From a virus: 32,219 nucleotides of DNA. The notes below the pieces were generated by a model that made no database searches, was not told the DNA's origin, and saw nothing but the letters and a program-made list of their open reading frames with translations. Below are positions 10,101 to 30,325 of this stretch, one piece after another. The stretch is from IMG/VR virus record IMGVR_UViG_3300047546_000765, positions 1 through 32,219 of that record, one strand, 5' to 3'. Each line of letters opens with the position of its first letter. Position 1 is the stretch's first letter. A program made the translations under genes and the position numbers.

Positions 10101-13100
10101 GAATGTTAATGTACCAGTAGTTAATCTTATCTCTTCACCAGTAGTATCATAATCTATAGTTGATACATCTCCAGTCCAAGTAGCATTTTCTCTTGGAGGA
10201 TTTCCAGATGGAACAAGAATAATACCACTCGCATTACCATTTTCATCTGTAACTACAGTTCCATTAAATGAAGATAGTGAATTGCCAGCAACTCCAGTAA
10301 ATCTAAGATCTGGATTTACCCAACGATTAATATTTCTTCCTTCTAGGAACACATTTACCACAGTATTTGGCTTCAATCTTCTAATTACATATTTTACTGG
10401 TATGCTTCTTGCAAAGAACGAGAGAGCAGTTGAAACTAGTTTCCCATTTACAGATTTACTTTGAACTCCCTTACCAATATCATTATTTTGAGGACTAATA
10501 TTTGAAGAACTTGCAATTGATGCTGAAGTAACGGCAGCAGTTGCTTGCTGGGTATTAACCTCTCCCAATGAATTAATTGATGTGAAAGCAGGAGAAGTTC
10601 CCAACCAATTAACTATGAATGAGTTATATAAGCTTGAGAAACTTTCTTTCGAATCATCTTTCGCAAGAAAAATATTAAACAAACTCGTATTAGTATCAAC
10701 AACTACAGGATCAGTAGTTTGATCATACCAGTGATCGATGTTTGGCGAGACAAAAACATCACCAACATATTGAATCACAACAAATGGATTTGGATTTAAT
10801 GTTTTTGAAGCAAATGAATTTCCTAGTAGTTCTAGATTTGTATATGGTAATGTAATAATATTACCAGATTTTTGATAACCAGCAACAGATCGCTGATCTT
10901 CCCTTGTATTTACTTCCCTCAATGAAACACAATCTTCTTTTGATTGAGGACGAAGAACTGATTGTTGTGTGTCAATAGAACACTTATAATCTAATGATGT
11001 TAGATTACCTACTTTATGTGATTCAAAATTATCAACAAAAAATCCACTCTTGAAACGATCCAAACCAATATCATCTTTGATTTGCATATTAAGAGCTTGT
11101 TGCTCTAGAATACTCAATGATGTGTAGTACTCAAGACGCTCAATACGCTTTTCAAGTTTTCCAATATCCCTCATCGTATATCTACGATTATCGACAGGAG
11201 TTACTCTTACATCTTTACTTGTTTTTGTATATGCTGGAATATAAACATAAAATAGAGGAATAGCATCATCAACTGTGTCTGGTTTTGATGGATTCAACGA
11301 TGAGTTTCCTTCCTTGACAAAGAACTCGCCATTTTTGTTTAGGAATACTCCGTCAATTCTATCAAGATATTGAACTTGACTAAACGAGAATGTATATTCT
11401 AAACCTAAGTCTGGAGCTGGGGTGACAGCAATAACTGATCCAGAACCAGAGAATTGACCAGTAGTAATTTCCAAAGAAGATGTATCTTGGAAACCAGCAA
11501 TAATTGCTTGGTTATCTACTTTTGGTCTAAAATCTAATACGTTCTTTAATTCTAAGTTTCCATGGACAGAAGAATTGAACGTTGGAATTTCTTCCTCATC
11601 TACACCAGCTTCATGTAGATAACTATCAATTGTACAAAAATCTCCTTGAGAATGTTCAAAATAATCAAAGGCAATTAATAATTGACCACTAGTTGGTTCA
11701 AATCCAGGTTTTAAAACAATTCTGGATACATCATAAATCGTGTCTCTTTGTCCAGTATCAAATGTAAATCTAGATGTTACATCTGTTCCGTAAATTAAAT
11801 TTCCAGCACTATCAACTTCTGGTGGTTGAGCACTAGTTCCTTCATAAACATAGCGCAACTTAAATGCATCTGAATATGATAAGATTTCTACAACCTCTAC
11901 GTCATAATCAGTACCTCTTAATGGAACAACTCTATCTCCAGATGAATTAACAATAATTCTCTTATTTCTTACAACAGTTTTTAGTCTTGGTTTTGCATTG
12001 GTTACTTCCAATGTTGCTGTTAGTTTTAATTTTGGAAACGTTCCGTTTGATGGAATTGTGCCAAAATAAGTTGATGGGAGTTGTAGGCTAATACTTCCAG
12101 AGGTCAAACCACTAGCAGTATCGGTGGATGAAGAAATTTCAACAGCATCTGGATCGACATAGATTATATCTCCATTGGAAATATTTGGAGCATCCCCTTT
12201 ATTCAATACAGTTATGATATAGTTTTCTTGAGTAAATGCTGCAAATCTTTGAGTACCAAATGGAAGTTGAGCAGCAAATGTAATTGTTCCTCCACTTGCT
12301 GATGCAGTTGTAACAAAATCTCTACGGAAGTAATATTTAATTTTGGTATCATCACCACCAGCAGATACTTTACTAATTTGTTTGCTTCCAGTTGGGAATA
12401 GTAATGTTCCAGAATTTGGATTCTTTAATTTTGGTCTCAAGCGAACGATACTTGTGTTATTAACACCTGCTGGTAATACTGTATCTAAATATACTCTTGT
12501 TTTTGATGATCCAGATGCCTTGGTAGCATACTGAACAATAGCACGGATTACGGTATTATTAACATCAGAGAATTGAACAATATCTCCCTGTTGTAATAAA
12601 TTGCTTGCATCAGCACTAAAGCTAGTTGATTCAATAAAATCATATCCTTGAGATCCAAAGAAAGTAAAATCTGTTACTGATTTGATTTCTGAGAATGCTT
12701 GATTATCTACTACAATATCTGCGCTGAAAACATTTGAATTACCAGATCCATATCTGCATCCAATAGATTTAACATTTTGTGGAGAATATGTAACTACGGT
12801 ATCTCTAAACAAAACGGGTACAACAGATGCTGCTGCACTTGGAGGAGAAGCAGTGGCTGGATTTTTTACTGTAACTGCTGGAGGTTGAGAAAATTCTAGA
12901 TTTACAGCATTTCTATTATTGATGATTGCCTTGTAAATCTGACCAGTTGGATTTTTAAACAATTCTATTTTAGAGGAATCATACTCCAAACCATTTATTA
13001 TAATGGTAGCTCCATCAGCATATCCAAGACCTCTATTTTGCACAACAAAATGAGAAAGAGTATTCTCTTTTGCAATTCTTACCGTGTTTCCAGCTTCATC

Positions 13101-15326: not shown

Positions 15327-17147
15327 TCAGAACTCGATAACTAGTTTGATATCTTCAATCTGGTCAGGTGCTCTTGTGATTAGACGACGGTTTTCAACGT
15401 AGATGATATCTCCAGAATTATTTGCAATTTCTGGGTTCGCATAACCAGCAGAGAATGTCACACCACCAGTTGATGAAGAATAAGCAGTGGTTGGAGTTCC
15501 AGAAGCACTTGACAATGCTCCAGTAACAACGTTTGAACCATTAAATGATCTTACAACACCAGAATCTGTGTGAGCATCATTAGTTTGAATATACTTGAGA
15601 ACACCAGCAGTTGTTGAACCGTTATCTAGAGTCCAAGAAACTACAGTTCCAAATGCAGTGCCACCAGAAACGGTTTGCTGAATTCTTTCATCTGGAATGA
15701 AATCAGCAGTAGCTCCGTTAATCTTGATTGCCTTTAATCCACTTAACGTATCTGCTGTTGAGAAAGTTGTTGTTCCAAAGTTGTATGGATCTTTTAGAAT
15801 ACCGATTCTGCGGAAATCGTTATCAACTGGGAAGTCTCCAGATCCTTCAGAATAAGTTAGACGAATATTCGTCATAACTCTCTTAGCATTTAATTCTGAT
15901 TCGTGATCTTTACCATGACCACCAAGAGGTGGAAGAATGACTTCAATAGCTCCTTTTGCTCCAGCAGTAACAGTAACGGATGTTGTTAAACCAACGTTTG
16001 AAAAAACATTTCCGTTTGTTAGAAGAACATTAGCATAAGTATATCCAGATCCTCTGGCTTGAATTGCAGCAGTTGTAATATTGCCGCTTCCATTGGTAAC
16101 AAATCTAACAATACCGCCTGTTCCATCTCCTCTGATTGCGGTGTATAGTGTTTGTGATGCTGGTAATCCAGTACCAGCATCTTCAATTAAAGCAACATCA
16201 CATGCACCATCAACAGCAGCTGCTGTTACTGCAGTTCTAGAAGCGTTTGATGGCAAAACAATTGGCATGAAGTCCGAAGATAAGAATCTTAGAACGTCAT
16301 CAGTTGGAATAGTGTACATGTACTTCCAAATATAACCAGCGCCAGTTGTTTCTGTGTATAGACCAGTTCCAGCAGCATAGTTGGCACCAGTTGTAATTGG
16401 TTCTTCCGTTGCATTTTGACCAGTGGCATTGGAAGGATTTTGACCATTATAAAGGCACTTAAATACTTCGTATGCAGAATTCATAACATAGAATTTAGCA
16501 TCAGCAATCGAAGATGCACCAGTTGCCGTTTGCTTTCCAATTCCACCACCACCTGCGGGAGTAGCAGAATAATCTGGTTTCCACATATCATATTTTGGAT
16601 TGGCAACCAAATCCCAGTTGTAACGTCTAATTACAGCTCGTGCAAAAGTATCGGTAATACGCTTAGCAGCAATAATCTCGTCGTAGATTGCATTTACTTC
16701 TGCTTGGTTATCTAGAGGAATTGGTGGAACGTCTTCTGTAGCGTAACGATAAACACCAGTAACTGCAGTTGCGTTTGTGACAATAGTTGCTCCGTTGTCT
16801 GCTGTTGCTGTGATTGTGCTTCCTACTGGAGGAGTTGAATTAACTCCGCTGGAACCAAAAACGTCGGTTAGAAGAAGTGCGTCTGCATAAACTGCTGCAA
16901 TCGTTGCCTTAAATGCTGAAGCAGCATATTGACCAGCAGTTGTTCCTACAAAAATTTTGTGACCTACTGTAAAGGATACACTTCCCTTAGAGTAGATTTC
17001 GAGATATGCTCTCCAAGGTTGCGGACGACCCACAAAGAAATACATTCTACTACGCTCGGAACCAGTATCCGTAGCACCTTCGGTTAGCGATTCTAGAAAT
17101 TGCTTCGCATTAAAAATTCTAAATTTATCAGAGATAATAGCAGGCAT
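15327..17147 (-). CDS. gp8: Baseplate wedge protein gp8 (enlarged, 606 aa)
   Basis: Strong landmarks of T4 gp8 are visible in the same order: SDKFRIFNAKQFLES and FFVGRPQPWR near the N-terminus, then AVIRRYNWD, YEVFKCLYNG, GYIWKYMYTIPTDD in the middle, and GDIIYVENRRL followed by APDQIEDIKLVIEF at the extreme C-terminus (T4: GEMIYMENRPP, MDQTEEINILF). gp8 is a wedge subunit that binds gp7 and gp10. T4 gp8 is 334 aa; this one is 606 aa. The extra length includes an insertion after PWR (about residues 45-145) and a glycine-repeat-like region near residues 346-410 (ARGSGYTYANVLL). It directly follows the gp7-like giant, as in T4, and has its own exact late promoter octamer. Confidence 0.95.
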   Translation of the reverse strand: MPAIISDKFRIFNAKQFLESLTEGATDTGSERSRMYFFVGRPQPWRAYLEIYSKGSVSFTVGHKIFVGTTAGQYAASAFKATIAAVYADALLLTDVFGSSGVNSTPPVGSTITATADNGATIVTNATAVTGVYRYATEDVPPIPLDNQAEVNAIYDEIIAAKRITDTFARAVIRRYNWDLVANPKYDMWKPDYSATPAGGGGIGKQTATGASSIADAKFYVMNSAYEVFKCLYNGQNPSNATGQNATEEPITTGANYAAGTGLYTETTGAGYIWKYMYTIPTDDVLRFLSSDFMPIVLPSNASRTAVTAAAVDGACDVALIEDAGTGLPASQTLYTAIRGDGTGGIVRFVTNGSGNITTAAIQARGSGYTYANVLLTNGNVFSNVGLTTSVTVTAGAKGAIEVILPPLGGHGKDHESELNAKRVMTNIRLTYSEGSGDFPVDNDFRRIGILKDPYNFGTTTFSTADTLSGLKAIKINGATADFIPDERIQQTVSGGTAFGTVVSWTLDNGSTTAGVLKYIQTNDAHTDSGVVRSFNGSNVVTGALSSASGTPTTAYSSSTGGVTFSAGYANPEIANNSGDIIYVENRRLITRAPDQIEDIKLVIEF

Positions 17148-17202: not shown

Positions 17203-20200
17203 TTAGGTGATTTCAAATGGAATGATTTCATTACCAGTATTGGAAACGATGGCATCTCCATTTACAGTAATACTTAGATTATTTGAACTTCTGTCCTTTA
17301 TTGTTCTTCCTTGACATGTTAAGAGTGAAGTCCCAGAAATATTTGTTATTTGAGATGGAACAGTGAAGTTTGTTGTGTATAAAGAAGTTCCTTTTATAGC
17401 ACGGAAACTAGAAATATTTCCACCAAACCCAGCGGTTCCATCATATGACAAACCAATTTTCATTGGTTTGCTTGCATAATTATTATTATCTGTATATGTA
17501 CTTCCAACCTGAGTACCATTTTGGAATAGTCTAGTAGTTGTTCCAGTTTTACTTATTGCAACATGACACCAAGTATTTGCTGGAACATTGGTTGTAGATT
17601 GAATTACTATTGATCCATTTACATAAGCGTATAATCTATTAATATTATCAATTCCTACAGTTACCGCAATTTCAGATGCAACTGATGTACGAGTATCAAA
17701 TATAATTTGATACACACCACTTGTTGTTCTGTAAATCCAAGATTCTATTGTAAATGCACCAGTACCCCAACCAAATAAAGTAGATGATGCTAAGGAAAGA
17801 CCATCTCCAGTTCCATCAAAACTTACAGAATTTCCAATTAAAGTGGTTGATCCCCTTACTGATGTGCAACCAGTAAATGATGTAGAAGTCTTACCAGTAT
17901 ATTGAATGACACCTCCAGATCCAGTAAATAGATAACCACTTGTTGGGAAGAACGTAGTTGAAGGGACTTCGATTGTAGAAGTTACCGATCCTGTTGAAAA
18001 TGGAATTGTAATTGGATTTTGAATTGATGGTGGCATTAATGAGAAGTAGAAACCATCGAGTGTATAACTAGATCTTCCTCTCAATTCAAAATCCTGTATG
18101 GTTAGAGTTGGATAATATCTTTCAACTTCTTCGAGTGATATTCCAGAAACATCTGATGTTCCATCATCAAATAATCCATTAAAGTGGCTTATTGTATGAC
18201 CAGCATTTGTAACCTCATATGTTCCAATATATTGGTTGTCAGAAGGAGAAATATTTCTAATCAAAAGAATAGAACTATTTCTCTGAACTACGTGTCTTCC
18301 GTAAATTGAAGTATCTAAAGTAACAAAAGAACCACTTCTTTGTAAGATAGGATCTGTCCAATACAAGTTTTCTACATATCCATCAACAGCTCCAGTTGGA
18401 GGTGGTATTAATAGAAGTTCAAATTTTGCTGTAGATTGTATTTTTACATCTCTTAGTATATTAAAAGTAGTTGCTAATTGTTTTACCGATGCGGAAGTAA
18501 CAAAAGACTTTATACTGTCTAACGTTGTATTAACAATACTTGTTGTTTTATAAGAAACATTAGTTACAGAATTAATAACACCAGTAGATCTGAGATCAAT
18601 TTCAATTTGCTCAGATACATTAACTACCGAAGCAGATGGTGTAATAATTTGATATCTTTGTAGTGATTCTGATGCATTAGTTGCTCCTAATCCACCCTTG
18701 ACTGTAACAAGTTGAGATTGAGATTCTACTACAGATACTCCACCAAACGCAGTAGATACAGGATCTGGAATTTGACGTAAAAATGTTCCAGCAGACCACT
18801 CTGCTGGTGATGTATTTAACTGTCCTCTTTCTACGCTTAGGAATCTATCGTTTAATTTTCTATAATAACGAACAATTTCTTTTCCAATTAGGAGATAACC
18901 ATAGGACTTGAACTTGCTTGTATCAGCAACATACACAACAGTATCAGAAGCAGAAAGATCAACTTGTAAGAGAGACGCATTGGCATAGTAATTAATATTA
19001 CTTAGAGCATCATTAGGAATTAAATTCTCAAACGTTGATGTAATTTGTCTGGTTGTTGCAAGTATTGATGTCGAAATAATATCAGAAACTCTTCCAGAAA
19101 TTACGCTAATAGCTTGTGTTGCTTTATACTGCGTATTGAATGCCTTCACATCAGCAGCAAATGGTGCGGATGTAGTTGCCAATTGAGTTTTAGCAACCTT
19201 GAAGTTATTTCCAGGAACAGTCTTAATTTGGATTTGTGCTGTAATTACTCTATCAGCAGATAGAGGACTATCAACAATAACAGAAGTAATAGAACTTACG
19301 TTGGCAACTTGATTTCCTAAAATGTCAATGGATGAATATGCTACGTAACCACCTTGAGATATGAAAGAATTAATCCCAATATTAATCAATGATACACCGA
19401 TATCTCTCTCATTTAAGATATCAAATCCTCTTGCTACAACAATTTTTGGTTCTTGTGTGTAACCAGAACCACCATCTATTAGATCTACACTGATAACTTG
19501 TCCTTTGCTTACAAGAACATTTGCTCTAGCTCCACCACCATTGCCATCTAACGGTATAAAATGTAAAATTGGTGGAACTTCGTATTGATAAGCAGTTGGT
19601 TGTGTAATTGGATTGTAGCTTCTTTGATTCCACTCAAGTTTGATAACTTTTCCATTTTCTATCTTAGCTACAACACTCAAACCCTCTCCTCTACTAATAC
19701 CATTGAAAGTTTCAATATCTACTCTTCCGAAGAAAGAATTTGAAACCTGCTGATAATTTCTATTCTCTTTACTTGTAGTTCTTGTTGGAAGACGCTTTAT
19801 TCTTCTAAACTTATCTTGTCCATCGATACGAACAAGATCATTATTTGATAATCCAACAAATGGTCTCTTATATGATTTTCCAATTACAGTTCCAGACCAC
19901 ACCTGCTCTAAATCAGACAATACTAATCTTCCAGCGTCATCAGTTTCATAAACAATACTTGCCGATGATACAGTTATAGATGTTTTTAAATTATAAAAAC
20001 CACTTACAGCAAACCAAACTGGTTTTGTGATGTCTATTTGTGCTTTGCTACCAAATAGATCAAATTCTAATTGATTTCCTGTAACATAAACATTTGATAA
20101 TTGTCCTACAATATTATATGATCCATTGGTATTTGTTTGATAAACATGAATCGAAGATCCAATTTTATCACCCATCCATGAATATCTAATAAAGTCTGCT

Positions 20201-23200
20201 AACCCATTAGAAACTTGAAGGGTTGCTCTTCCCTTAGCATAGAAAGAATCAGGATTATAATCATAGACATTTAATACTTGACCAATATTTCTTCCATATA
20301 AGTATCGCATGTCAATTTTCATTTCCTTCAAAATTGGCACATTGAAGAAAATATTTGGACCAGATACTGTATAAGAATAACCCTTTCTTTGGAGAACTCC
20401 ATCTAGGAAGACATATAAGAAATCTGGCTCCTCTATATTTTGAACAGTAAAGTCCTCAACATCCAAGATTAAGAAAGGACCAGATTTGATATCATCAACC
20501 AAATTATAATCAATTGTTAATCTCTTATAATTGCCAACACCAATACCAACAACTTTTTCTACAGCAGTTGGTTCTCCAATACTCTTAGCACTAAAATCTT
20601 GGTCCCAAATTGGAGCAACATCAAATACCAATTGGTTTGGAACAACATCTCTCTTGATATAGTAAGAATCAAATCGTGGATAATCTTCTGTATATTTTGG
20701 TCTTTGGAGAACAGCGTTGATTGTCAAGAATAGATCTTCATCCTCATCTGTAACTACTTCTTCACCTGTTTCCCAATATAGATCAAATACCTTGTTTTCT
20801 CCATCGACATAATCTGGTAAGGTTCGAACTACAGTTTTCTTATCCAAAATATCTTTAACATTTGCATATAGAGAATCAACGGAAGAAATAACATCATTAC
20901 ATTCTTGTGCTAGCAGTAAAGGATCATCTATTAAATTATAATTTGAATATGTTAAAGTATTAGTCCAGTTACCAGATTTATTTCTATTATTTTCTGTTAT
21001 CTCAACTACTCCAGCACCATTCTCTAGTATATCTTTTACAATATTAATCATAGTATTGATACTAGATGCAACTTCTTGACATACTGGAGTAATAGGATCA
21101 GTTAAAATAGTATTATCAATTACTGGAGGTATTGAAGTATAAGCACCATTACTTAACTGATTCCTCATTGCAAGAATCATTAAGTCTCCCAATGTTTCCC
21201 ATGCATCTATAGCAGCTGCTGTTTCTATTGCACTTCTATTGATATATGTTAATTTTTCTCCATATGGGTATCCATAGAATTCATAGTATGATCTTGCAAA
21301 TTCAACTATTTTTTCGTTACCGCCAAATTTTAAATGATAAACAACCGCATCAATTAAATATCCTAAATCTCTCTTACACTTTTGTTTATCTGTGGATGGT
21401 AGTGCATAATTATCATAAATGTATTCACTAACTTCTTCTTGTAGATGAAGTTTATTTTTCTTGATAAGATTGGCAGCATCATAATACGATCCATTGTTTA
21501 TTGCGCTTAGATAGAACGTTGCTTGATCAGAAGCTGAAGTTACCAATGCATTATTTGATAACGTAATCTGTGTAGAATTATTAATTTCGGTAATTCTAGT
21601 ATTTGCTGGGAATGCTCTACCGCAACTTATATACATTCCAATTGCTAGTCTATTAGTATTAGCAACTGTTACACTCGAAGAACCAGTAGTGTAACTGATT
21701 CCGTTTTCAACTATATCCCAATTTCTAATAGAAAGAGATGCTAATTTTGTCGCATACTTGAATATATCAAGTGATCTTGTTTTATTTTTTGTAATATAAT
21801 CATAATCACTATCAGATTTAAAGATGCTTACATAATCTACAATTTTTACGTTTCCACCGAAACGGATATCGTGTTGATATGCATCCAAGATATATCCAAT
21901 ATCTCTCTGATAATCATCTAGTTTGGTACTCCAATCTAGATTCGGATGCTTTTCTTTTCCATATCCAACAGATTCTTCTATGATGAACGTTCTATTTCTT
22001 TCTAATTGATTGGCAGCATCGATCCATCTTCCACTTCTTTGGAAAATATTTCTGAGTTTCCTTAAATATCTTGAATTGTATTCATTATCTTTGAATGCAA
22101 AATATTTACCGTAGAAAGTTACCCCTTTGTAACTAGTTACATCCGATAAACCATTTCCAGTTTTTTCTACTCCAGGTCCCAGTGGCGGTTTAGAAAAAAC
22201 TATAGTATCGTTGAGAACGGTGTAAGAAACTCCTGGTTCTTGAATTATTCCATCCAGAGTAATAATTAAATTCTTGGCACTGTATGGAGTAAATGGGACA
22301 TTATTTTTTCTTAATTGAAATACAGTAGTTCCCTGCAATCTTCCATCACTATCATAGTATCCATCAAATGGTGCTGATAAAGATACTTCAAATGCAGTGT
22401 ATTCATCAAAATTAAATTCTGAAGGAGCAGCAGTTCCAAATCCACGTCGAATTCTTTGATTCTCAACTTTTTGAATTGTTTGAGTAATTGTTCGTTTTGT
22501 ATTTTCTACCGTAATTTTATTTTTATTTGGATCCCAAAGTTGGATGATAGAAAAATGGGAATTTTTATTGCTTTGCTGCTGAGGCATAGATGATTCAGCA
22601 GCTGCTTCAATATCAACCTGACCAAATAATCTAAATCCAGCTGGGTGTGTTGTAGATTTAATTAAATCTCTCCACTGATCAATTGGAGTTTTTGATTTTA
22701 CAACATAAGAATAATCTTGATAGAATTTGCTATCTAATAATCTCTGATTTGAAACTCCCAGTCTTCCTCTGTCGGAACTGTAATATCCAATATTGTCATA
22801 AAAACTTGAGATCTCATCTTCAAAAGTTGATACAAAGATAGATTTGATGATGCCAGAAGTTGTGAAGATTAAAGAGCTAACAGGGTAACCAGTTCTGAAG
22901 ATTCCAGAAACTTTCTCAACCTTTAGTAAATTGGATCCAGTTCTCCATTCAGATACAATACCTCTAGCAACTTCATTATTATTAATTTTTTGAACAACCA
23001 ATTCTCCTCTTTGGAAATTGCCAGAAATGGATGTTAATGCAAAAACATATTTTGATGTGAATTTTGAAGATACTGTTTTATCGTTATGGAATGCCCCTCC
23101 ATTTTGAATAATGGTAACACTCTGAGGAACTCCAATACTTGTGCTTTCTGCATATGCTTCTAGAGAACCTTCTATGATTTCTATCTCTGGAGCGAATGTG

Positions 23201-26200
23201 TAACCTTTTCCAGGATTAACAACTGTGATGGAAAATATTTTTCCGTCTCTGACAACAATGTTAAATCTTGCATCAACCCCATCACCGTTCGTAATAACAA
23301 TTCTTGGATTGATGTAATTTAAACCTTCTTCATCTATTCTAACCCCATTGATAATCTTGGTAGAATTATCGAATAGCACAGTTGCTTTTGCCTTAAAACT
23401 CTTATTAGGATCACAACCAATTACAACAGGAATTTTTTTATAATTTAATCCTAAATTAACTATTTTAACTTTATCAATTTGTCCAATAGCAAATTCGCCA
23501 TTGGTTGTGTATGTTATTACACCAGATCCATCCCAAAGTGGAGTCGAATTTAATTCATATACAAATCTTGTTGGTGTGACATATGTTATCTTTTTAGTTC
23601 CTTGTAAAGGATCACTAATTATTTTGAAATATTTTTCATCAGATTCAACTATTCCATTCTTATCGAAATAGTAGAAATTCGAGAATTGTGTTCCTTTCTT
23701 TTGATTGTATGAATTAAATGCCAACGCAGATCCAAAACCAAACTTGACTGAAGTAAATGCTCCAGAATTTCCTGGTAGAATATTTGATGTTACTTTTTCT
23801 TCAGTGATGATATTATAATTTTTGCTTGGACTAATATCAAAGTAAGTACCAGTTAAAGAAGAATGCGAGGTATCAAATTTATATTTGTAGTACTCTTGAA
23901 GATCAATGTTTGGATTCACTACAAAATTACTATTATCTGTAGAAAATTCAAATTTGTATTCTGCAGAATCTGCAGATTCAACAGAAACTAATTTTTTAGG
24001 AGAACTTGAATCAAAGAAACTAGTGCTTATTTGAACTTCCTCTGCGCTTTCCAACTGTGTTACATAATCAAAAACTATGGTAGCTTCTTGTGTTTCTTCA
24101 TCATACAATTTGATGTAACCAGTAGTAGCAGATGATGATAGTTGGAAATTATTAGTAAAACGATATTTTGCATTAAACAATATGACCTCTTCACCATCGA
24201 AGTGATCACTACTTAATGTTCCCTCTTTACCACGAACAACAGTTAATGTATTGCCAAGAATTGAAGATACTTCAACAACTTCTTTTCCAATTTTTAAAAG
24301 ATCTCCATTAGAAACTCCAATAGAACTATCTACGATTAGTTTTGTTAGTCCTGCTGCAAATCCAACGTGATCAACGTATAAAATTAATCTGGAATTTCCG
24401 AGAGAACCAGAGGATCTTACCAGAGATTCATCATCAACACTAAGATAATCTGCTTTTTTATAACCAGATCCACCAGAAGTTATAACAACAGAAGATACAA
24501 CTCCAGCAGATGAAACAACGATATTTGCTTGAGCACCTGTCCCAGAACCTCCTGTTAAAGGAACATTCAAATATGTTCCAGGTGTATAATCTGCTCCGCC
24601 ATTAAAAATTTCGAATCTTCCAACACCAGTATAAGTTAATACAGATTTATATGTTGGTGGTACAAATTTTACTTTTTGATAAAGTCTTTTTCTTAGATAA
24701 TATGTTTTTGTTTTAGTAGCATCATTTGGTAAAATATCAATATTAACTTCGTCACCAATACCAAGTCCATGCTCAACAGAAGTTTCTACAAGAGCGACAC
24801 TTTGATTCACATCAAATGGAATTAATCCATCACTCAATGATGTTAAAGTTACTATTCTCGAACCAGAAGTGTTGAATAAATCATTTGATTGAATGAAATA
24901 ATCATCATCGACTACCCAAGTTCCAGTGAGAACTTTTATCTTTACTGTATTTTGTTTTGATGTTCCTTCTAATACTTCTCCAGTAGCAATCGCTGGATTT
25001 AATCCATCGGTTAAACTTAAAATAGCTCCTTCGGTATAAGAACTATCTTGATCTATTAAAATTGAAAATGTTTTGATATCTGCAGAAAACGTTCCAGTAC
25101 CATTAAATGTTCCACTAACATTTTTAAGAACAACCAGATTGTCATTTGCAACAGTTCCTACAATTTCTCCATATGCACCAGTTGATGGTTGTCTTAATGT
25201 ATCGTTAGCAAATAGATAGGCGGTTTGAATTGTAGTTAATTGTACTACTTTGTTTTCTTTGCTTTGTATATAATTTACAGGTCTTCCTTTTACAGAAGAC
25301 ACGATAGCATCAACTTCTTTTCCTTCTGTGCCAGAATTATCAAAATAAATTTTTGAATTTATAGAAAAATTATTGGACGATTGCAATACTGAAATAGAAT
25401 CTACAGTTCCAGATCTTACCTCTGCAATTTTTGCAATAACGCCATCACCATTCCTTGGAATATTTGGAACAAACAATCTCTTAGACTTTCTTGGAATGTC
25501 AGCTTGATTGATGTTTGAATTGTAGTTACTATCAACTGGAAGAGAATAAAAGTTTTCTCCAATGAAATAAGGAAACTGTGGTACTTGATTACTATCAATC
25601 GTTAAGAAGTATGCATATGTTCCATCTGGATAATCTGGAGTGATGCAGAATCTTCCATTATTCTCATCCAATGAACCACTCTTATGTACATATCTGTAGT
25701 CATTCACAAAATCTCCAAGAGGATATGTCGTTGTTGATGGACCCTTTGGACGGTTATTGTTTAGAGTATAACTAGATGTCATCCTAACAATAGGAGATTG
25801 TGGATCTAAAGGATTTTGATGAGCAAATGGACCATAAATTGGATTGCCATCATATGCAAATCCTAAGATAGGAGAATGAACTTTTACAGGTGGTTCTGAT
25901 CCAGCATTGTTTAGATTGTCATTTAAAAGAATTCTGAGTGCTTTTGGGTTGCCAATATGACCGTAACCATACTCCAATACATTATTATAATTTTCAAAAA
26001 CATATCCGTAGTCAGTATCTAAAACATTAGATAATTTTGTAAATCTATTTTTATTCCATTCCTTTAAATATGGTGTTCCAGATGCTCCTCTTCCAACTGG
26101 TATTACATCAACGATAACAGTACTCTGCTCATAAAAATTACCTTCTGCGTTTTTTGTGAATCCAGTTAGTTTTCCATCTGTATCAACTATAGCAGTGTAG

Positions 26201-28131
26201 TCGGCAAATCTTCCTCTCCCCGCATTATCTCTAATTCTTATCAAAGGTGGTGAAGAATAATATTCACCTGGATTATCGATGACTAAACTTGTAACTTTTC
26301 CTTTTGTTACGATTGCTCTTACAACTGCTTCTCTTCCAGAAGTAATTACAACTTCTGGAGTTCTTGGAAAAACAGTCTGAGTATCAACTATAATCTTTTC
26401 AACAACTTGACCAGATAAAACAGATCTTGCTTGATTTGGAACTCCATCTAAAAGAACAAAAGGTGGCTTCTCATACCCACTTCCTTGTGTATCTACCTTT
26501 ATTTCTTCGAGAACACCAAAACGAACACTTTCTTCATCTTTATAACCAAAAATTGGAACACCATTTAATAGAACACCAACATCTCTTTTTGGTGTCTTAT
26601 AAACTTCTGTAGTTTTTGTTGGGTTCTTTCTGATCAGACGAAGAAGTTCTTGATCTAATACTTTTTCATTAACAATAGATCCATCCAAAATTTTATACGA
26701 TGGATAACTGGAGCTGGTAATATAGTAATATTGATCGTCCTCAAAAATTGCAGAAACGTCAGTTGATACTTCATCCAACTGAGAAGCAATAGATGGTAAA
26801 GTTGGTATATTAACTGAATTGCCTTGACTTAAAATCCATCTTGGTTGATTTGTTCCAGACAAAACAATCTTTGGATCTGCCGTTTCAAAACCAGGATTTG
26901 AAATCTGGATTTCATCTCCAGCAGATGAGTATGGTTGTGAATCTGCAGATTTAAAATTATATACTATACCTAAAGTTAATAACCTTACTCCAGGAGCATC
27001 TAAAACAACTGGTTTATAGACGGAAGATCCAACAGTATGGAAAGATGGAATAGAACCGCGTTGTTCAATAACAAATTGAGTTACATTTTTGTTCGAAAAA
27101 CGTATAAGTTCATTATTGATTAAAATCTCACCAGTTTTTTGCCATCCAATTGTTGAGAATACATCTATTCTTTTTCCAACGCCACTTGCCAAAAGCAAAT
27201 CTTTTTCTAATCTGGTTTTTGTAGATACTGAAAATAGTCCATTGACTGTTTCTGGAGCAAGAACAATATTCCAGATCTGCTCGTTATCTACTGTTCCTTC
27301 AGCAAAAACATTATCTATAGTTGCAGATGCATAACCATATTCATCGGATGCTGATTGAACAACCGACTTTCCGATTAAAGATTTTGGATCTCCAGAAATT
27401 ACTTTAACCTTTAAAGCATAGATGTTAATCCAATCGGATTCTGAAGATTTGTAAGTAAAATCTCTTGGGTTATATACAGATGGTTTATCATTAGAAATGA
27501 GAGTATTAAAAATGAATTTAATACTGGATTCTGTTCCTTTTGATTTGTAAAACTTTTTAATATTTTTGATGAGAGTTCTCTTATCGATCTCTCCCTTCAA
27601 ATATTTTTCTGGAAATGCTCCAAGATATTGTGCCTCAAAACTCTTGATTAAACCGTATAAAAATAAATTGCTGACATTAACAACAATGTCACTTGTTCCA
27701 TGTGCTGCAGCATCACTTGTTACAAAGACACTCTTTTCGTAAATATCACCAAGCTGAGTGTTTGCACTGACACCTCTGGAACACTCGGTTAATGTATTGC
27801 CGTTCTTCTCCGCATAAAAAATAATTTCATCGCCAATTTGCAAGAAACCATTTTTTTCTGGAAATCCCGATGCATCATCGAGAACGATTGTTGTATCAGA
27901 TGCCGTAATAGAACTTGTTAAGTTTGTATATTGATTGAGAATGCTCTTCTCGTAGAAATCAATATTTGCATACTTGTCTAAATTTAAAGCAATATCAAGA
28001 GCCTGCCCCTGCGCTTCTTGTTGCTCATAGTACTTCTGAACGAACTTACTAAAGAGTTCATATTCAGAACTAATGAAACTAGGAAGCTGCGACTCAATTA
28101 GAGTTGAAATTTTCTTAGTCTTGACTGCCAT
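17203..28131 (-). CDS. Giant gp7-like baseplate wedge protein with YHYH-like, helical-repeat and LamG-like domains (3642 aa)
   Basis: It lies exactly between gp6 and gp8, the gp7 position. Residues 1-270 contain EYELFSKFVQKYYE, DKRTLIKNIKKFYKSKGTES, IKFIFNTL and SLIGKSVVQSAS, which parallel the C-terminal third of T4 gp7 (FCEAYIQYL, FYSTKGIEASYKFLF, DLVGQTIY). A further gp7-like piece, YSYVVKSKTPIDQWRDLIKS and THPAGFRLFG, falls at residues about 1797-1838. Between them are RG-turn modules, glycine modules and a YHYH-like domain (about residues 700-880; AYDGNPIYGPF at 758, then GRFCITPDYPDGTYAYF). Residues about 2033-2370 hold two copies of a helical module (RDIGYILDA, FGGN). Residues about 3440-3590 look like a LamG/concanavalin-type lectin domain (FTIESWIYRT, NTWCHVAISK, IKGTSLYTTNF). 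T4 gp7 is 1032 aa. The wedge role is inferred from synteny and motifs; the lectin domain suggests surface contact. Confidence 0.9.
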   Translation of the reverse strand: MAVKTKKISTLIESQLPSFISSEYELFSKFVQKYYEQQEAQGQALDIALNLDKYANIDFYEKSILNQYTNLTSSITASDTTIVLDDASGFPEKNGFLQIGDEIIFYAEKNGNTLTECSRGVSANTQLGDIYEKSVFVTSDAAAHGTSDIVVNVSNLFLYGLIKSFEAQYLGAFPEKYLKGEIDKRTLIKNIKKFYKSKGTESSIKFIFNTLISNDKPSVYNPRDFTYKSSESDWINIYALKVKVISGDPKSLIGKSVVQSASDEYGYASATIDNVFAEGTVDNEQIWNIVLAPETVNGLFSVSTKTRLEKDLLLASGVGKRIDVFSTIGWQKTGEILINNELIRFSNKNVTQFVIEQRGSIPSFHTVGSSVYKPVVLDAPGVRLLTLGIVYNFKSADSQPYSSAGDEIQISNPGFETADPKIVLSGTNQPRWILSQGNSVNIPTLPSIASQLDEVSTDVSAIFEDDQYYYITSSSYPSYKILDGSIVNEKVLDQELLRLIRKNPTKTTEVYKTPKRDVGVLLNGVPIFGYKDEESVRFGVLEEIKVDTQGSGYEKPPFVLLDGVPNQARSVLSGQVVEKIIVDTQTVFPRTPEVVITSGREAVVRAIVTKGKVTSLVIDNPGEYYSSPPLIRIRDNAGRGRFADYTAIVDTDGKLTGFTKNAEGNFYEQSTVIVDVIPVGRGASGTPYLKEWNKNRFTKLSNVLDTDYGYVFENYNNVLEYGYGHIGNPKALRILLNDNLNNAGSEPPVKVHSPILGFAYDGNPIYGPFAHQNPLDPQSPIVRMTSSYTLNNNRPKGPSTTTYPLGDFVNDYRYVHKSGSLDENNGRFCITPDYPDGTYAYFLTIDSNQVPQFPYFIGENFYSLPVDSNYNSNINQADIPRKSKRLFVPNIPRNGDGVIAKIAEVRSGTVDSISVLQSSNNFSINSKIYFDNSGTEGKEVDAIVSSVKGRPVNYIQSKENKVVQLTTIQTAYLFANDTLRQPSTGAYGEIVGTVANDNLVVLKNVSGTFNGTGTFSADIKTFSILIDQDSSYTEGAILSLTDGLNPAIATGEVLEGTSKQNTVKIKVLTGTWVVDDDYFIQSNDLFNTSGSRIVTLTSLSDGLIPFDVNQSVALVETSVEHGLGIGDEVNIDILPNDATKTKTYYLRKRLYQKVKFVPPTYKSVLTYTGVGRFEIFNGGADYTPGTYLNVPLTGGSGTGAQANIVVSSAGVVSSVVITSGGSGYKKADYLSVDDESLVRSSGSLGNSRLILYVDHVGFAAGLTKLIVDSSIGVSNGDLLKIGKEVVEVSSILGNTLTVVRGKEGTLSSDHFDGEEVILFNAKYRFTNNFQLSSSATTGYIKLYDEETQEATIVFDYVTQLESAEEVQISTSFFDSSSPKKLVSVESADSAEYKFEFSTDNSNFVVNPNIDLQEYYKYKFDTSHSSLTGTYFDISPSKNYNIITEEKVTSNILPGNSGAFTSVKFGFGSALAFNSYNQKKGTQFSNFYYFDKNGIVESDEKYFKIISDPLQGTKKITYVTPTRFVYELNSTPLWDGSGVITYTTNGEFAIGQIDKVKIVNLGLNYKKIPVVIGCDPNKSFKAKATVLFDNSTKIINGVRIDEEGLNYINPRIVITNGDGVDARFNIVVRDGKIFSITVVNPGKGYTFAPEIEIIEGSLEAYAESTSIGVPQSVTIIQNGGAFHNDKTVSSKFTSKYVFALTSISGNFQRGELVVQKINNNEVARGIVSEWRTGSNLLKVEKVSGIFRTGYPVSSLIFTTSGIIKSIFVSTFEDEISSFYDNIGYYSSDRGRLGVSNQRLLDSKFYQDYSYVVKSKTPIDQWRDLIKSTTHPAGFRLFGQVDIEAAAESSMPQQQSNKNSHFSIIQLWDPNKNKITVENTKRTITQTIQKVENQRIRRGFGTAAPSEFNFDEYTAFEVSLSAPFDGYYDSDGRLQGTTVFQLRKNNVPFTPYSAKNLIITLDGIIQEPGVSYTVLNDTIVFSKPPLGPGVEKTGNGLSDVTSYKGVTFYGKYFAFKDNEYNSRYLRKLRNIFQRSGRWIDAANQLERNRTFIIEESVGYGKEKHPNLDWSTKLDDYQRDIGYILDAYQHDIRFGGNVKIVDYVSIFKSDSDYDYITKNKTRSLDIFKYATKLASLSIRNWDIVENGISYTTGSSSVTVANTNRLAIGMYISCGRAFPANTRITEINNSTQITLSNNALVTSASDQATFYLSAINNGSYYDAANLIKKNKLHLQEEVSEYIYDNYALPSTDKQKCKRDLGYLIDAVVYHLKFGGNEKIVEFARSYYEFYGYPYGEKLTYINRSAIETAAAIDAWETLGDLMILAMRNQLSNGAYTSIPPVIDNTILTDPITPVCQEVASSINTMINIVKDILENGAGVVEITENNRNKSGNWTNTLTYSNYNLIDDPLLLAQECNDVISSVDSLYANVKDILDKKTVVRTLPDYVDGENKVFDLYWETGEEVVTDEDEDLFLTINAVLQRPKYTEDYPRFDSYYIKRDVVPNQLVFDVAPIWDQDFSAKSIGEPTAVEKVVGIGVGNYKRLTIDYNLVDDIKSGPFLILDVEDFTVQNIEEPDFLYVFLDGVLQRKGYSYTVSGPNIFFNVPILKEMKIDMRYLYGRNIGQVLNVYDYNPDSFYAKGRATLQVSNGLADFIRYSWMGDKIGSSIHVYQTNTNGSYNIVGQLSNVYVTGNQLEFDLFGSKAQIDITKPVWFAVSGFYNLKTSITVSSASIVYETDDAGRLVLSDLEQVWSGTVIGKSYKRPFVGLSNNDLVRIDGQDKFRRIKRLPTRTTSKENRNYQQVSNSFFGRVDIETFNGISRGEGLSVVAKIENGKVIKLEWNQRSYNPITQPTAYQYEVPPILHFIPLDGNGGGARANVLVSKGQVISVDLIDGGSGYTQEPKIVVARGFDILNERDIGVSLINIGINSFISQGGYVAYSSIDILGNQVANVSSITSVIVDSPLSADRVITAQIQIKTVPGNNFKVAKTQLATTSAPFAADVKAFNTQYKATQAISVISGRVSDIISTSILATTRQITSTFENLIPNDALSNINYYANASLLQVDLSASDTVVYVADTSKFKSYGYLLIGKEIVRYYRKLNDRFLSVERGQLNTSPAEWSAGTFLRQIPDPVSTAFGGVSVVESQSQLVTVKGGLGATNASESLQRYQIITPSASVVNVSEQIEIDLRSTGVINSVTNVSYKTTSIVNTTLDSIKSFVTSASVKQLATTFNILRDVKIQSTAKFELLLIPPPTGAVDGYVENLYWTDPILQRSGSFVTLDTSIYGRHVVQRNSSILLIRNISPSDNQYIGTYEVTNAGHTISHFNGLFDDGTSDVSGISLEEVERYYPTLTIQDFELRGRSSYTLDGFYFSLMPPSIQNPITIPFSTGSVTSTIEVPSTTFFPTSGYLFTGSGGVIQYTGKTSTSFTGCTSVRGSTTLIGNSVSFDGTGDGLSLASSTLFGWGTGAFTIESWIYRTTSGVYQIIFDTRTSVASEIAVTVGIDNINRLYAYVNGSIVIQSTTNVPANTWCHVAISKTGTTTRLFQNGTQVGSTYTDNNNYASKPMKIGLSYDGTAGFGGNISSFRAIKGTSLYTTNFTVPSQITNISGTSLLTCQGRTIKDRSSNNLSITVNGDAIVSNTGNEIIPFEIT
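21000..22035. repeat. Duplicated helical module within the giant gp7-like gene
   Basis: Two copies offset by about 178-180 residues share the order DAAN.(L/I)..N, E(E)(S/V), RD(I/L)GY(I/L)(L/I)DA, (R/K)FGGN.KIV. Copy 1 runs from SGRWIDAANQLERNR (S at 22035) through QRDIGYILDA to IRFGGN. Copy 2 runs from NGSYYDAANLIKKNK through KRDLGYLIDA to LKFGGN. A shorter repeat follows copy 2 (CQEVASSINTMINIVKDIL versus QECNDVISSVDSLYANVKDI). Confidence 0.85.
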
Positions 28132-28135
28132 TTAA

Positions 28136-29932
28136 TTACTCTTTGTACGCAATAAAACTACTATTTGCTACATCTACATCAAGATAAACCTCACGACTTA
28201 CCTTGATATCATTTGAAGCAGGTTTGACTCTAACTGAGATTCTATTATCAAAGAAACTACCTTTTATGATAGTCAGATTATACATTTTAAGTTCGCCATT
28301 TTCATAATCGATATCGCCAACTTCTTTGTCCAGAACGACTTTATCACCAGTTATTGCATCTATTCTATATAGAATGATTTTACCATCCCTATCTTCGAGA
28401 TAGACATCAAATAACGGATATTCAGTAACTCTAAACCCAGTGGTGGATAGAGTTGGTCCATCGCAATCCTTATCAAAAGCATTCTGGAAACATATCTCAT
28501 AATAGTAAGTGGAGTTTAGTTGAGGATAGAAATCTTTCCTCATAAAAACTTGTGTTAGGTTAGAATTGATAGTTTTATCTGCGTCGTCAATAACACCAAT
28601 TGCTTTACTGTATCTAAAGGTTCCATTGAACTTTTCTGTGCCAGACAGATTAATATACTGCTGGAAAGCACCAATTACTTGGTCTCTAATTTGTGCAGGA
28701 GTTTTACTTGTTTTGCCACCATCATAGAAAATCTTACTTTGCAACTCAACAAATAAGATAGAAGGATCGATCAATACAGGTTCTACTGATGCAATCGCAT
28801 ATTTTTTTATCTCAGCAACAATTTCCTTCTTTGTGAATGATGTAAGATAAGATGCATCAGATGGCTTGACAGCAATAAAAACTTTTCCATACATGGGTGG
28901 ATTTTGTTCTTCTCCACCAAATGTAATAATATCACTGACTGCTGGATAAATCTTTCTTACAATTGCTGCATAATCATTTGATGTTACTGCGCGATCTTGA
29001 GCACCAAATAACTTTGGAGCATTAAATTTAATTTTTTCTACACTCTCAATGTCTTCCCCACCAGAAGAAGCAACAATGTTATTGATTGTCGTTGTAAAAG
29101 CATTAGGAGAGGTGCCTGTGGGAGTCTCCAAGACGCCAGAAAATACAAACGTGCCTACTCCATTAGATGCTGGACCAGAGGTTACTAGATAGGTCACTTC
29201 GATGCGAGTGTTGTTTTCTAGATTTCTACCCAAAACTCCATCACCAAAAATTAATTCGTATCTCTCATCTTCAATCTCATTCAAAAAGAAAATCTTTGAT
29301 AGACCATCGACATTGAGAATATTATCAGATCTCAGATAAGGTTCGTTGAATGATCCTCCACCAGGATAAACTCTCACTTCAATGGTGTTGGTATCAATCG
29401 ATTGGTTATCTAGGATAAACTTTTGACTCTTTAATGCAGTATTGACAGTAAAATTGTTTGTTACAAAAGTTCCTTCTTTTAATTTTACGTTGTCAAATAC
29501 TGCGATGTTATTTGATACTTGAGCCTTAATATCAACTGGAGTTATGTAAGAATACAATGTGTTCTCATATGAACTAATAAATCCAGTTCCTTTCTTAAGA
29601 ATTAGTTCTGTGTCTGTTGTTGGATTGGTGTAATTAACAGCAAAACTAACGTAAGCAGTTGGAGATGTAATTGATTTAGGAGTATAACCTAACTGCTTGG
29701 CAAGCGATACCACATTATCTCGTAGCGTTGCACTGTCAATGAATAACTCATTGACAACCATGTTGGTATTGAATGCCGTATAATACGTATTATACGCAAG
29801 AACATCAATAAGGTTACTTAATACAGAACCTTCAAAATCATAATCAGTGAAATCTGTCTGTGCTCTCAAATATTCTTTGAGTGCAATCTTGATTTCTTCA
29901 AAATCTAAATTGGCAACCTGTGCGTAAGGCAT
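28136..29932 (-). CDS. gp6: Baseplate wedge protein gp6
   Basis: At 598 aa it is close to T4 gp6 (660 aa), the gp6/J-like protein that forms the inner dimeric ring of the wedge and joins gp25, gp7 and gp53. Family landmarks are NLIDVLAYNTYYTAFN and LAKQLGYTPKS in the first 100 residues, FGDGVLGRNLENNTRIEV near residue 230, and SGGEDIESVEKIKFNAP followed by DRAVTSNDYAAIVRKIYP near residues 290-330. The gene starts on the base next to the gp25 stop codon, and its own stop is 4 nt before the giant gp7-like gene, so the three are probably translated from one message. Confidence 0.96.
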   Translation of the reverse strand: MPYAQVANLDFEEIKIALKEYLRAQTDFTDYDFEGSVLSNLIDVLAYNTYYTAFNTNMVVNELFIDSATLRDNVVSLAKQLGYTPKSITSPTAYVSFAVNYTNPTTDTELILKKGTGFISSYENTLYSYITPVDIKAQVSNNIAVFDNVKLKEGTFVTNNFTVNTALKSQKFILDNQSIDTNTIEVRVYPGGGSFNEPYLRSDNILNVDGLSKIFFLNEIEDERYELIFGDGVLGRNLENNTRIEVTYLVTSGPASNGVGTFVFSGVLETPTGTSPNAFTTTINNIVASSGGEDIESVEKIKFNAPKLFGAQDRAVTSNDYAAIVRKIYPAVSDIITFGGEEQNPPMYGKVFIAVKPSDASYLTSFTKKEIVAEIKKYAIASVEPVLIDPSILFVELQSKIFYDGGKTSKTPAQIRDQVIGAFQQYINLSGTEKFNGTFRYSKAIGVIDDADKTINSNLTQVFMRKDFYPQLNSTYYYEICFQNAFDKDCDGPTLSTTGFRVTEYPLFDVYLEDRDGKIILYRIDAITGDKVVLDKEVGDIDYENGELKMYNLTIIKGSFFDNRISVRVKPASNDIKVSREVYLDVDVANSSFIAYKE

Positions 29933-30325
29933 TTATCGAGTTCTCTCTAGGAAAAATTCTACTGCCACAGGTGTATCTTGTCTGCCAACAATACTATAAG
30001 AAAGTTCAACTTGAAATCCATTTTCATCAGAATCTGGATATGCTAGCACACTCAAAACAGAAATTCTTGGTTCGTATCTTTCGAGTACTTCTCTAACTTC
30101 TAAAGAAATCAAAGCAGCAGTTGCATTATCTAAAGGTTCAAATAATAGATTCAAAAGACGCGAACCAAGATTCGGTTGAAACATGCGCTCACCAATACGA
30201 GTAAAAAGCAAATTCTGAATTGCTTGAGCAATTGCAGCTTTATCTTTTACAACGATTAGATCGTCAGTAACAGGATGCTTTTTAAACGTGACGCTTAGAT
30301 CTTTAAACGTCTGAAATGATGGCAT
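29933..30325 (-). CDS. gp25: Baseplate wedge protein gp25 (GPW/gp25 family)
   Basis: The 130-aa product is nearly the length of T4 gp25 (132 aa). It shows the family core NLLFTRIGERMFQPNLGSRL, then LLFEPLD and the invariant RYEPRI motif, with EVREVLE before it. gp25 sits with gp6 at the tube/sheath end of the wedge, and the EPR motif is needed for nucleating the sheath; homologues occur as TssE in type VI secretion and in other contractile systems. An AATAAATA late-promoter-like octamer lies 25 nt upstream, and no clear Shine-Dalgarno precedes the ATG. Confidence 0.96.
   Translation of the reverse strand: MPSFQTFKDLSVTFKKHPVTDDLIVVKDKAAIAQAIQNLLFTRIGERMFQPNLGSRLLNLLFEPLDNATAALISLEVREVLERYEPRISVLSVLAYPDSDENGFQVELSYSIVGRQDTPVAVEFFLERTR

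Follow-up and report, generated by a model that had tools for sequence, protein, structure and literature searches.

A probable gp7-type baseplate wedge protein with its core split at two sites in a cyanophage-type T4-like virus

The stretch of DNA analysed here, referred to as the window, is an IMG/VR virus record of 32,219 bases (IMGVR_UViG_3300047546_000765), a T4-like, cyanophage-type contig of an ocean virus whose hosts are probably cyanobacteria. Its 3642-amino-acid (aa) protein (P0001), encoded by an open reading frame (ORF) at 17203..28131 on the minus strand, as are the window features given below in the form start..end, is very probably a gp7-type baseplate wedge protein of the cyanophage kind of T4-like phage, which would combine an inner-wedge core, a conserved insert platform, C-terminal recognition parts and a signal to the tail sheath. 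Sequence comparison gives good support for a split gp7 core in this protein, and the mechanism beyond this anatomy is what we infer from it. The alignments show a core that runs almost without a break in small relatives, as it does within the C-terminal third of T4 gp7, but is cut into three in the window protein, and the same two sites take insertions of other lengths in other lineages.

A core in three pieces and its two insertion sites

The core of about 280 residues lies in the window protein at residues ~1-60 (piece A1), 154-310 (A2) and ~1785-1846 (B). The pieces were compared with a profile of 35 shorter relatives (alignment A1; 400-981 aa), trimmed to the columns of residues 1-280 of the relative L083, so that the inserts of the others drop out. 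Piece A1 (27952..28131), made of N-terminal helices, matches profile columns 3-58 over window-family residues 1-62 with an expectation value (E) of 3.1e-18 in hhalign. Piece A2 (27202..27672), in which helices with a KGTE motif are followed by a beta domain where T4 has domain V, matches columns 62-189 over residues 154-310 (E 2.8e-17), and piece B (YSYVVKS...HPAGFRLFG; 22594..22779) matches columns 215-279 over residues 1775-1855 (E 2.4e-20). A hidden Markov model (HMM) of the same profile matches the window ORF at E 8.5e-37 in three ordered domains (4-66, 162-276 and 1681-1844). The third begins ~100 residues ahead of piece B and re-aligns with the beta domain of the profile (from 132 on), for which reason the end of the large insert (1681-1784) looks like a second beta-domain copy. 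The Pfam model PF23786 (Baseplate_wedge) matches 35/35 shorter relatives of the alignment at E<=0.1 (best 1e-16), and the window protein only at residues 1796-1836, with E 0.01 and 15.8 bits against a cut-off of 27.

The original prediction had placed the core in two segments, the first 270 residues and a stretch further on. Both are core, but residues ~61-153 form an insertion, an RG-turn beta-barrel of 93 residues (27673..27951) without a match to the profile of 35 (E 0.055, hhalign) and without a counterpart in the 11 shorter relatives aligned, together with 22 long ones, to window residues 1-330. The first 270 residues are therefore two core pieces around an RG-turn domain, and the core has three pieces, two internal insertion sites and a C-terminal extension. 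Insertion 2 (residues about 311-1784; 22780..27201) separates the core HMM matches by 1476 residues; its ~1475 residues, with RG-turn, glycine-rich and YHYH domains, bear out the roughly 1500 inserted residues expected before the second segment. The about 1800 residues expected after it are likewise there, as a C-terminal extension (residues 1847-3642; 17206..22593) whose end varies between relatives. A separate gene or a frameshift as the source of the inserted pieces was considered and rejected: no stop interrupts the 3642 codons, and many contigs repeat the architecture.

The order of the pieces is constant among 246 non-T4 ORFs with A2, a set that is not independent, since it includes several near-identical contigs and some records twice. 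Piece B is present in 176 of them and follows A2 in 176/176; A1 is present in 170 of these and precedes A2 in 170/170. Among the 70 ORFs without a B match, 69 run off their contig at the 3' end, and the remaining one, L049 (1490 aa), may be a frameshift, its next ORF being in another frame. Site 1, between A1 and A2, holds 2-4 residues in 80 ORFs, 93-118 residues in another 49 and 596-612 residues in the remaining 41. Site 2, between A2 and B, holds 23-61 residues in nine ORFs and 256-363 in 72. Gaps of 1434-1510 residues occur there in 35 ORFs (1476 in the window) and of 2051-2253 residues in 15, the 43 ORFs of the Syn9 type have 2527-2744, and single ORFs have 733 (phiM12) and 1611. The ends vary as well: ~640 residues precede the core in T4 and ~145 in four IMG/VR ORFs, and piece B is followed by 18 residues in S-CREM2 gp122 and by 2572 in Syn9. 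S-CREM2 gp122 carries all three core pieces and, in the extract of PMC10665884, is reported from the virion proteome with 91 unique peptides.

At the compact end of this range stand the gp7 of Ochrobactrum phage OC (631 aa) and its IMG/VR relatives, which have the same three pieces in the same order. Unlike the window protein, they lack the RG barrel at site 1, and their site 2 spans 23-61 residues in nine ORFs of 400-631 aa and 256-363 in 72 (the complete ones 529-1028 aa). The long cyanophage orthologs include those of S-B43, S-WAM2 and S-PM2, P-SSM2 gp7 (5195 aa), Syn9 gp101 (6076 aa) and P-HM2 gp7 (4454 aa). Their core is split at the same two sites in S-B43, P-SSM2, Syn9 and P-HM2, the four in which this was tested, whereas insert lengths and C-terminal extensions differ. 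Of 50,697 phage records, 478 match window residues 1-1844 in tblastn; 374 of these bear the name Synechococcus phage, and S-B43 (72.2% identity) and S-WAM2 (67.4%) are nearest. PHROG 4406, whose sole label is 'virion structural protein', covers residues 3-3431, and NCBIfam gives no match to the window protein at E<=1.

S-B43 (L082) carries two 365-bp inverted repeats, 100% identical (14891-15255 and 24117-24481), which enclose 8.9 kb with gp25, gp6 and the first ~2150 gp7 residues. The C-terminal part of its gp7 (window residues 2038-3431) is a separate ORF on the opposite strand; if the DNA between the repeats were inverted, a single long gp7 would result, which may point to a switch between full-length and short gp7 or else to an assembly error. 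Aeromonas phage 65 gp7b (BFVD E5DRT6, 379 aa) matches the model of a short relative described below, which suggests that the T4-type N-terminal part can be a separate gene.

Relationship to T4 gp7

The motif KFYKSKGTE starts at window residue 193 (T4 counterpart from 733) and HPAGFRLFG at 1829 (T4 counterpart from 884), so that the distance between them is 1636 residues in the window protein and about 150 in T4 gp7 (PHROG 964; PDB 5IV5, 5HX2). T4 gp7 shares the co-linear core with its KG.E..YKFLF-like and HP.GF motifs and the beta domain (V) between them, but has no large break at site 1, and has ~640 residues ahead of the core and a C-terminal domain VI. Since direct BLASTP, PDB phmmer and an HMM of the T4 C-terminal third gave no convincing single match, the link to T4 was drawn via the shorter relatives. 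Against 22 T4-type gp7 proteins, the 35-relative profile gives a single co-linear alignment of columns 8-269 with T4 647-891 (hhalign probability 97.5, E 7.2e-12); the next alternatives reach E 0.17 and 0.25, and the best of 100 shuffles 0.055.

The window family itself points to the same T4 positions. When 58 80-residue tiles over its residues 1-2360 (18 rows) were compared with the profile of 22 T4-type gp7 proteins, the three best were tile 161-240 with the first motif (T4 703-758, E 1.5e-4) and tiles 1761-1840 and 1801-1880 with the second (T4 865-894, E 4.7e-4 and 4.5e-4). The fourth-best reached E 0.018, values below this occurring only over the two motif pieces. As whole pieces, residues 154-310 match T4 703-758 at E 3.9e-4 (best of 100 column shuffles 0.0013) and residues 1775-1855 match T4 866-894 at E 4.0e-4 (best of 100, 0.018). 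The prediction that two segments resemble the C-terminal third of T4 gp7 is thus confirmed by separate profile comparisons, at the right, co-linear T4 positions and beyond chance in tiles and shuffles.

Other searches run in the same direction. The HMM of the T4 C-terminal third finds 164 of 1064 non-T4 ORFs at E<0.01, and 164/164 are core-bearing by HMMs built without T4. A PDB search with the profile of alignment A1 returns T4 gp7 and Klebsiella phage gp7, both at E 1.8e-6, the next match being at 0.09. In tblastn the Ochrobactrum phage OC protein matches 943 phage records; the matches listed include genes annotated as gp7 or baseplate wedge in Aeromonas, Acinetobacter and Edwardsiella phages, which align with query residues ~3/7-311. 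Additionally, iterated profiles were built from the window's own pieces with T4 loci excluded and tested on 68 ORFs that are longer than 500 aa and come from T4-like loci. At E<0.01 the A2 profile finds 24 of these, including T4 gp7 itself at 730-758 (E 5e-10), and the B profile finds 8/68, at positions 861-890 in full-length gp7s.

Several results count against this relationship or limit its reach. The A1 iterated profile finds 0/68 of the same ORFs at E<0.01, and A1 by itself compares with T4 646-672 at E 0.08 and 0.39 only, which is no match (hhalign). The direct link is weak: BLASTP of T4 gp7 against the window protein gives E 0.007 and 0.17, the window ORF is not matched by the T4 C-third HMM at E<=10, and PDB phmmer with the window protein yields no gp7 among nine matches at E<=1. 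Pfam Gp7_helical, Gp7_5th and Gp7_6th do not match the window protein at E<=0.1, and neither the ~640 N-terminal residues of T4 gp7 nor its domain VI were found in it (no PHROG 964 match at E<=0.01), the former as predicted. Because the PHROG 964 and Gp7 Pfam models give no match, the window protein is kept out of the narrower family of full-length T4 gp7. Used as one profile, window-family residues 1-2000 (61 rows, 43 of them shorter same-locus ORFs) give only a spurious 21-column match in hhalign.

Structure models were made of L083 (449 aa; no T4 rows in the alignment) and of window residues 1-330, and both are of low confidence: predicted local distance difference test (pLDDT) 61.8 and predicted template modelling score (pTM) 0.30 for the first, pLDDT 65.4 and pTM 0.40 for the second. 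The Foldseek search with the L083 model returns three PDB matches only at E<=0.001, 9f4a, 5iv5 and 5hx2 (E 1e-7 to 1e-5), all gp7-length chains (1004-1031 residues) of gp7-bearing baseplate entries, aligned over 289-298 columns. These matches have TM-scores of 0.16 and a root-mean-square deviation (rmsd) above 20 A, so the L083 model does not reproduce the overall gp7 arrangement. In VIA-align, L083 131-224 superposes on T4 763-854 (5iv5) with Z 10.4 over 91 residues at rmsd 3.0, a superposition confined to the beta domain. The window 1-330 model matches nothing in the PDB at E<=0.001; T4 gp7 in 5iv5 ranks third (E 5.8e-3). The L083 model also matches 45 predicted viral structures of BFVD at E<=0.001, and 15 of these carry the name baseplate wedge subunit or initiator. 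As far as the models go, they support a fold kinship of the core beta domain with T4 gp7.

The beta domain alone is no gp7 marker. The 35-relative profile matches 265 of the 1064 ORFs at E<1e-3, and 17 of these, outside the core set, are matched solely over that domain (profile 127-227), a further point against relying on it. These 17 ORFs (444-527 aa; e.g. L148 2271-3806) occupy the gp8 position in IMG/VR relatives, directly downstream of short gp7 genes, match near their own C-termini and are perhaps gp8-type proteins sharing the domain.

A different origin for the core, from the general contractile-tail family (P2 gpI, XM1 gp17, TssG) and no closer to T4 gp7 than to those proteins, is unlikely. 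It would account for the weak TIGR02242 phage tail domain match of phiM12 gp7 (E 1e-5, below its cut-off) and for the Foldseek matches at E 0.02-0.23 to baseplate chains of XM1, 7-7-1, Milano, Diffocin and Pa193, where the XM1 chain has 404 residues, the length of the gp6-like gp16. However, gp7 chains lead the Foldseek matches by more than three orders of magnitude, gp7 proteins are the only significant PDB profile matches (P2 gpI and XM1 gp17 sequences lying outside the comparison), and the gene order is T4-type.

Neighbouring genes, VrlC and gene labels

Upstream on the same strand lie gp25 (29933..30325; PF04965, E 7e-20) and gp6 (28136..29932; PHROG 219, E 4e-206; PF21379, E 1.5e-18), and downstream gp8 (15327..17147; PHROG 438, E 9e-176; PF09215, E 2e-12), followed by a VrlC-type DUF4815 gene distinct from gp7 (7140..15269; PF16075, E 1.5e-46; BLASTP to HTVC008M 'VrlC' gp057, E 5e-131). 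The order gp25-gp6-window ORF-gp8 gives the window ORF the gp7-type position between gp6 and gp8 in the baseplate operon, as in T4. Together with the profile matches and the shorter relatives with little or no interruption, this position supports in part the prediction of a baseplate wedge protein rebuilt around a conserved core, with additions that may face outward; the two-piece scheme was its incomplete part.

One paper takes a different view. According to the extract of PMC7029224, pelagi- and cyanomyophages lack T4 gp7, which 'appears to be substituted' by VrlC; the window gene would then be a fibre or structural protein without relation to gp7, whose gp7-like motifs arose by chance. The weak direct similarity of the window protein to T4 fits this account, as do the labels of its orthologs, which among the matches listed are mostly 'structural protein' or 'virion structural protein', with the note 'putative fiber' in Syn9 and the name VrlC in S-MbCM7. 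It is nevertheless very improbable. VrlC, like the window gp7 a large baseplate-region gene adjoining gp8, is another gene with another domain, both in the window and in HTVC008M, where the window's DUF4815 gene has its relative in the VrlC gene gp057; Pfam reports no DUF4815 domain for the window protein at E<=0.1. HTVC008M gp055 (L275 21436-24486), labelled 'head closure Hc2' and located between gp6 and gp8, carries all three core pieces (A1 E 2.8e-13, A2 1.7e-32, B 2.1e-20), and none of the four HTVC008M genes that bear the label baseplate wedge initiator has a core piece at E<1. Moreover, phiM12 has gp7 and a VrlC-like gene together, and the shorter relatives tie to T4 gp7 at E 7e-12.

With the gene taken as gp7, some of its current names need revision. 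In S-MbCM7 (L273 12001-22602 and 24576-29595) the names of the two large genes flanking gp8 are swapped, the gp7-core gene being called 'VrlC' and the DUF4815-like gene 'gp7'. Gene 161 of Methylophilales phage Melnitz-3, labelled 'hypothetical', carries the core; the extract of PMC9004378 on this phage makes general mention of T4-like baseplate wedges. For these families, 'head and packaging' and 'head closure' look like mistaken PHROG labels in view of position and core. The label gp7 already stands in P-SSM2 and P-HM2, both with the split core. In the extract of PMC3037559, gp7 ranks among the non-cyanophage core proteins as very divergent, and many such functions are expected in cyanophages as divergent copies. 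The extract of PMC2984593 does not list g7 among missing tail genes, and reports the T4 tail proteins g10, g11 and g12 as missing from cyanomyoviruses. Among the matches listed in the searched extracts of open-licence PMC literature there is no account of the split core, for the long cyanophage orthologs either, and no baseplate structure of a marine T4-like cyanophage; the tail structure of the freshwater myophage A-1(L) has been solved.

Inserts, C-terminal extension and the proposed wedge

Insertion 2 holds an RG-turn copy (306-375), glycine-rich domains (541-680, 1150-1249 and 1552-1655) and a YHYH domain (727-851; 25579..25953; PF14240, E 5.3e-33). The insert and the extension have domain types in common: RG-turn copies recur at 61-153, 306-375, 3055-3103 and 3382-3431, and a fourth glycine-rich copy lies at ~2862-2899. 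Glycine-rich copies also occur in the 1294-aa and 827-aa ORFs of the window; the former (3046-6930) has six matches to the kind found in the gp7 insert (E 0.003 or better) and no Pfam match at E<=0.01. A model of the RG-turn domain (residues 64-157) resembles phage small barrels (9in6_M, Z 9.9; 8jov_1, Z 9.7; 8rk3_b, Z 9.6). The extension carries two copies of a helical RDxG domain, at 2040-2130 (21742..22014), overlapping a PHROG 5342 'tail fiber protein' match at 2074-2327, and at 2220-2290 (21262..21474; E 2.9e-11 with the copy-1 profile). Residues 2021-2082 and 2238-2278 of this helical region show a weak phycobilisome/phycocyanin-like similarity (Pfam E 0.011, PDB phmmer E 0.14-0.97) that is probably a short-motif resemblance. 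A Concanavalin A/Laminin_G_3-like domain (3439-3578; 17398..17817; PF13385, E 5.6e-16) lies near the C-terminus.

Conservation was measured as mean percentage identity per 100 residues against 12 long relatives, four of which run off their contigs. It is 66 over residues 1-300, 48-72 over 301-1800, 67 over 1801-1900 and 43-69 over 1901-2900, and then, per 100 residues to the end, 33, 49, 31, 31, 45, 22, 10 and 8. Residues 3501-3642 show 0-3% identity in 8/8 complete long relatives, while L004 and L019 keep 45-57% there. In tblastn, residues 3400-3642 match 373 phage records, all under 60% identity, of which 356 are named Synechococcus phage, Cyanophage or Prochlorococcus phage. The identity figures suggest that the ~1475-residue insert, with a conservation close to that of the core, is a structural part, and that the far C-terminal end alone, with its lectin-like domain, varies like a host-recognition module.

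The same figures give real weight, somewhat short of even, to the reading in which the large insert is an undisplayed, internal baseplate scaffold and the C-terminal end alone lies outside: identity in the insert (301-1800) is near the core's 66-67%, and over 3401-3642 it drops to 8-22%. Set against this is the YHYH domain within the insert, a type tied to host recognition in the extract of PMC7029224; an insert of this size, furthermore, could hardly be buried in the core.

In the mechanism proposed here, the three core pieces would fold together and form the inner wedge with two gp6 copies, the gp7-type protein being the single-copy partner of two gp6 subunits. The large block would exit the core as an outward loop and build a conserved peripheral platform, and the C-terminal extension would bear host-recognition parts, its last ~240 residues carrying a lectin-like domain and differing between relatives. 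Binding at the tip would be relayed via gp7, gp6 and gp25 to the sheath, along the lines suggested for Vibrio phage XM1. In the extract of PMC10457771, the XM1 gp7 ortholog gp17 forms a core bundle with two copies of the gp6-like gp16 and holds twelve spikes, of which an internal loop and the C-terminal region carry six each, and the pull of the spikes is proposed to reach the sheath via the wedge and a gp25-like protein. The extract of PMC6300606 describes for TssFG the same 2:1 wedge as in T4 gp6-gp7. XM1 gp17 resembles the window protein as a wedge protein with extra components on an internal loop and a C-terminal part, but it has 242 aa and carries separate spike proteins in place of built-in domains, and it is likened here by description, not by sequence. 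By this analogy, the additions of the window protein, at internal sites and the C-terminus, may sit on the same loops as in XM1 gp17.

A broader reading, offered tentatively and rather less likely than not, is that a single wedge polypeptide forms the inner baseplate and the periphery alike. Two fixed loop sites in the gp7 core, together with its C-terminus, would serve as landing places for domains, and the giant cyanophage inserts would do the job of several separate peripheral and adhesin proteins of T4.

For the marine T4-like phages, the analysis gives back a wedge protein that one paper called absent, and points out its gene. Its misnaming in some records and its reported absence may have arisen because the recognisable core is cut up by large extra domains. 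Labels that are wrong or swapped (head closure, VrlC, gp7) become correctable, and three short profiles are now at hand for finding gp7 in other genomes. It also becomes possible to test, as a question of structure, how a conserved core can accommodate more than 2700 residues within a single site, and whether the inserts take over the roles of g10, g11 and g12, reported missing from cyanomyoviruses in the extract of PMC2984593.

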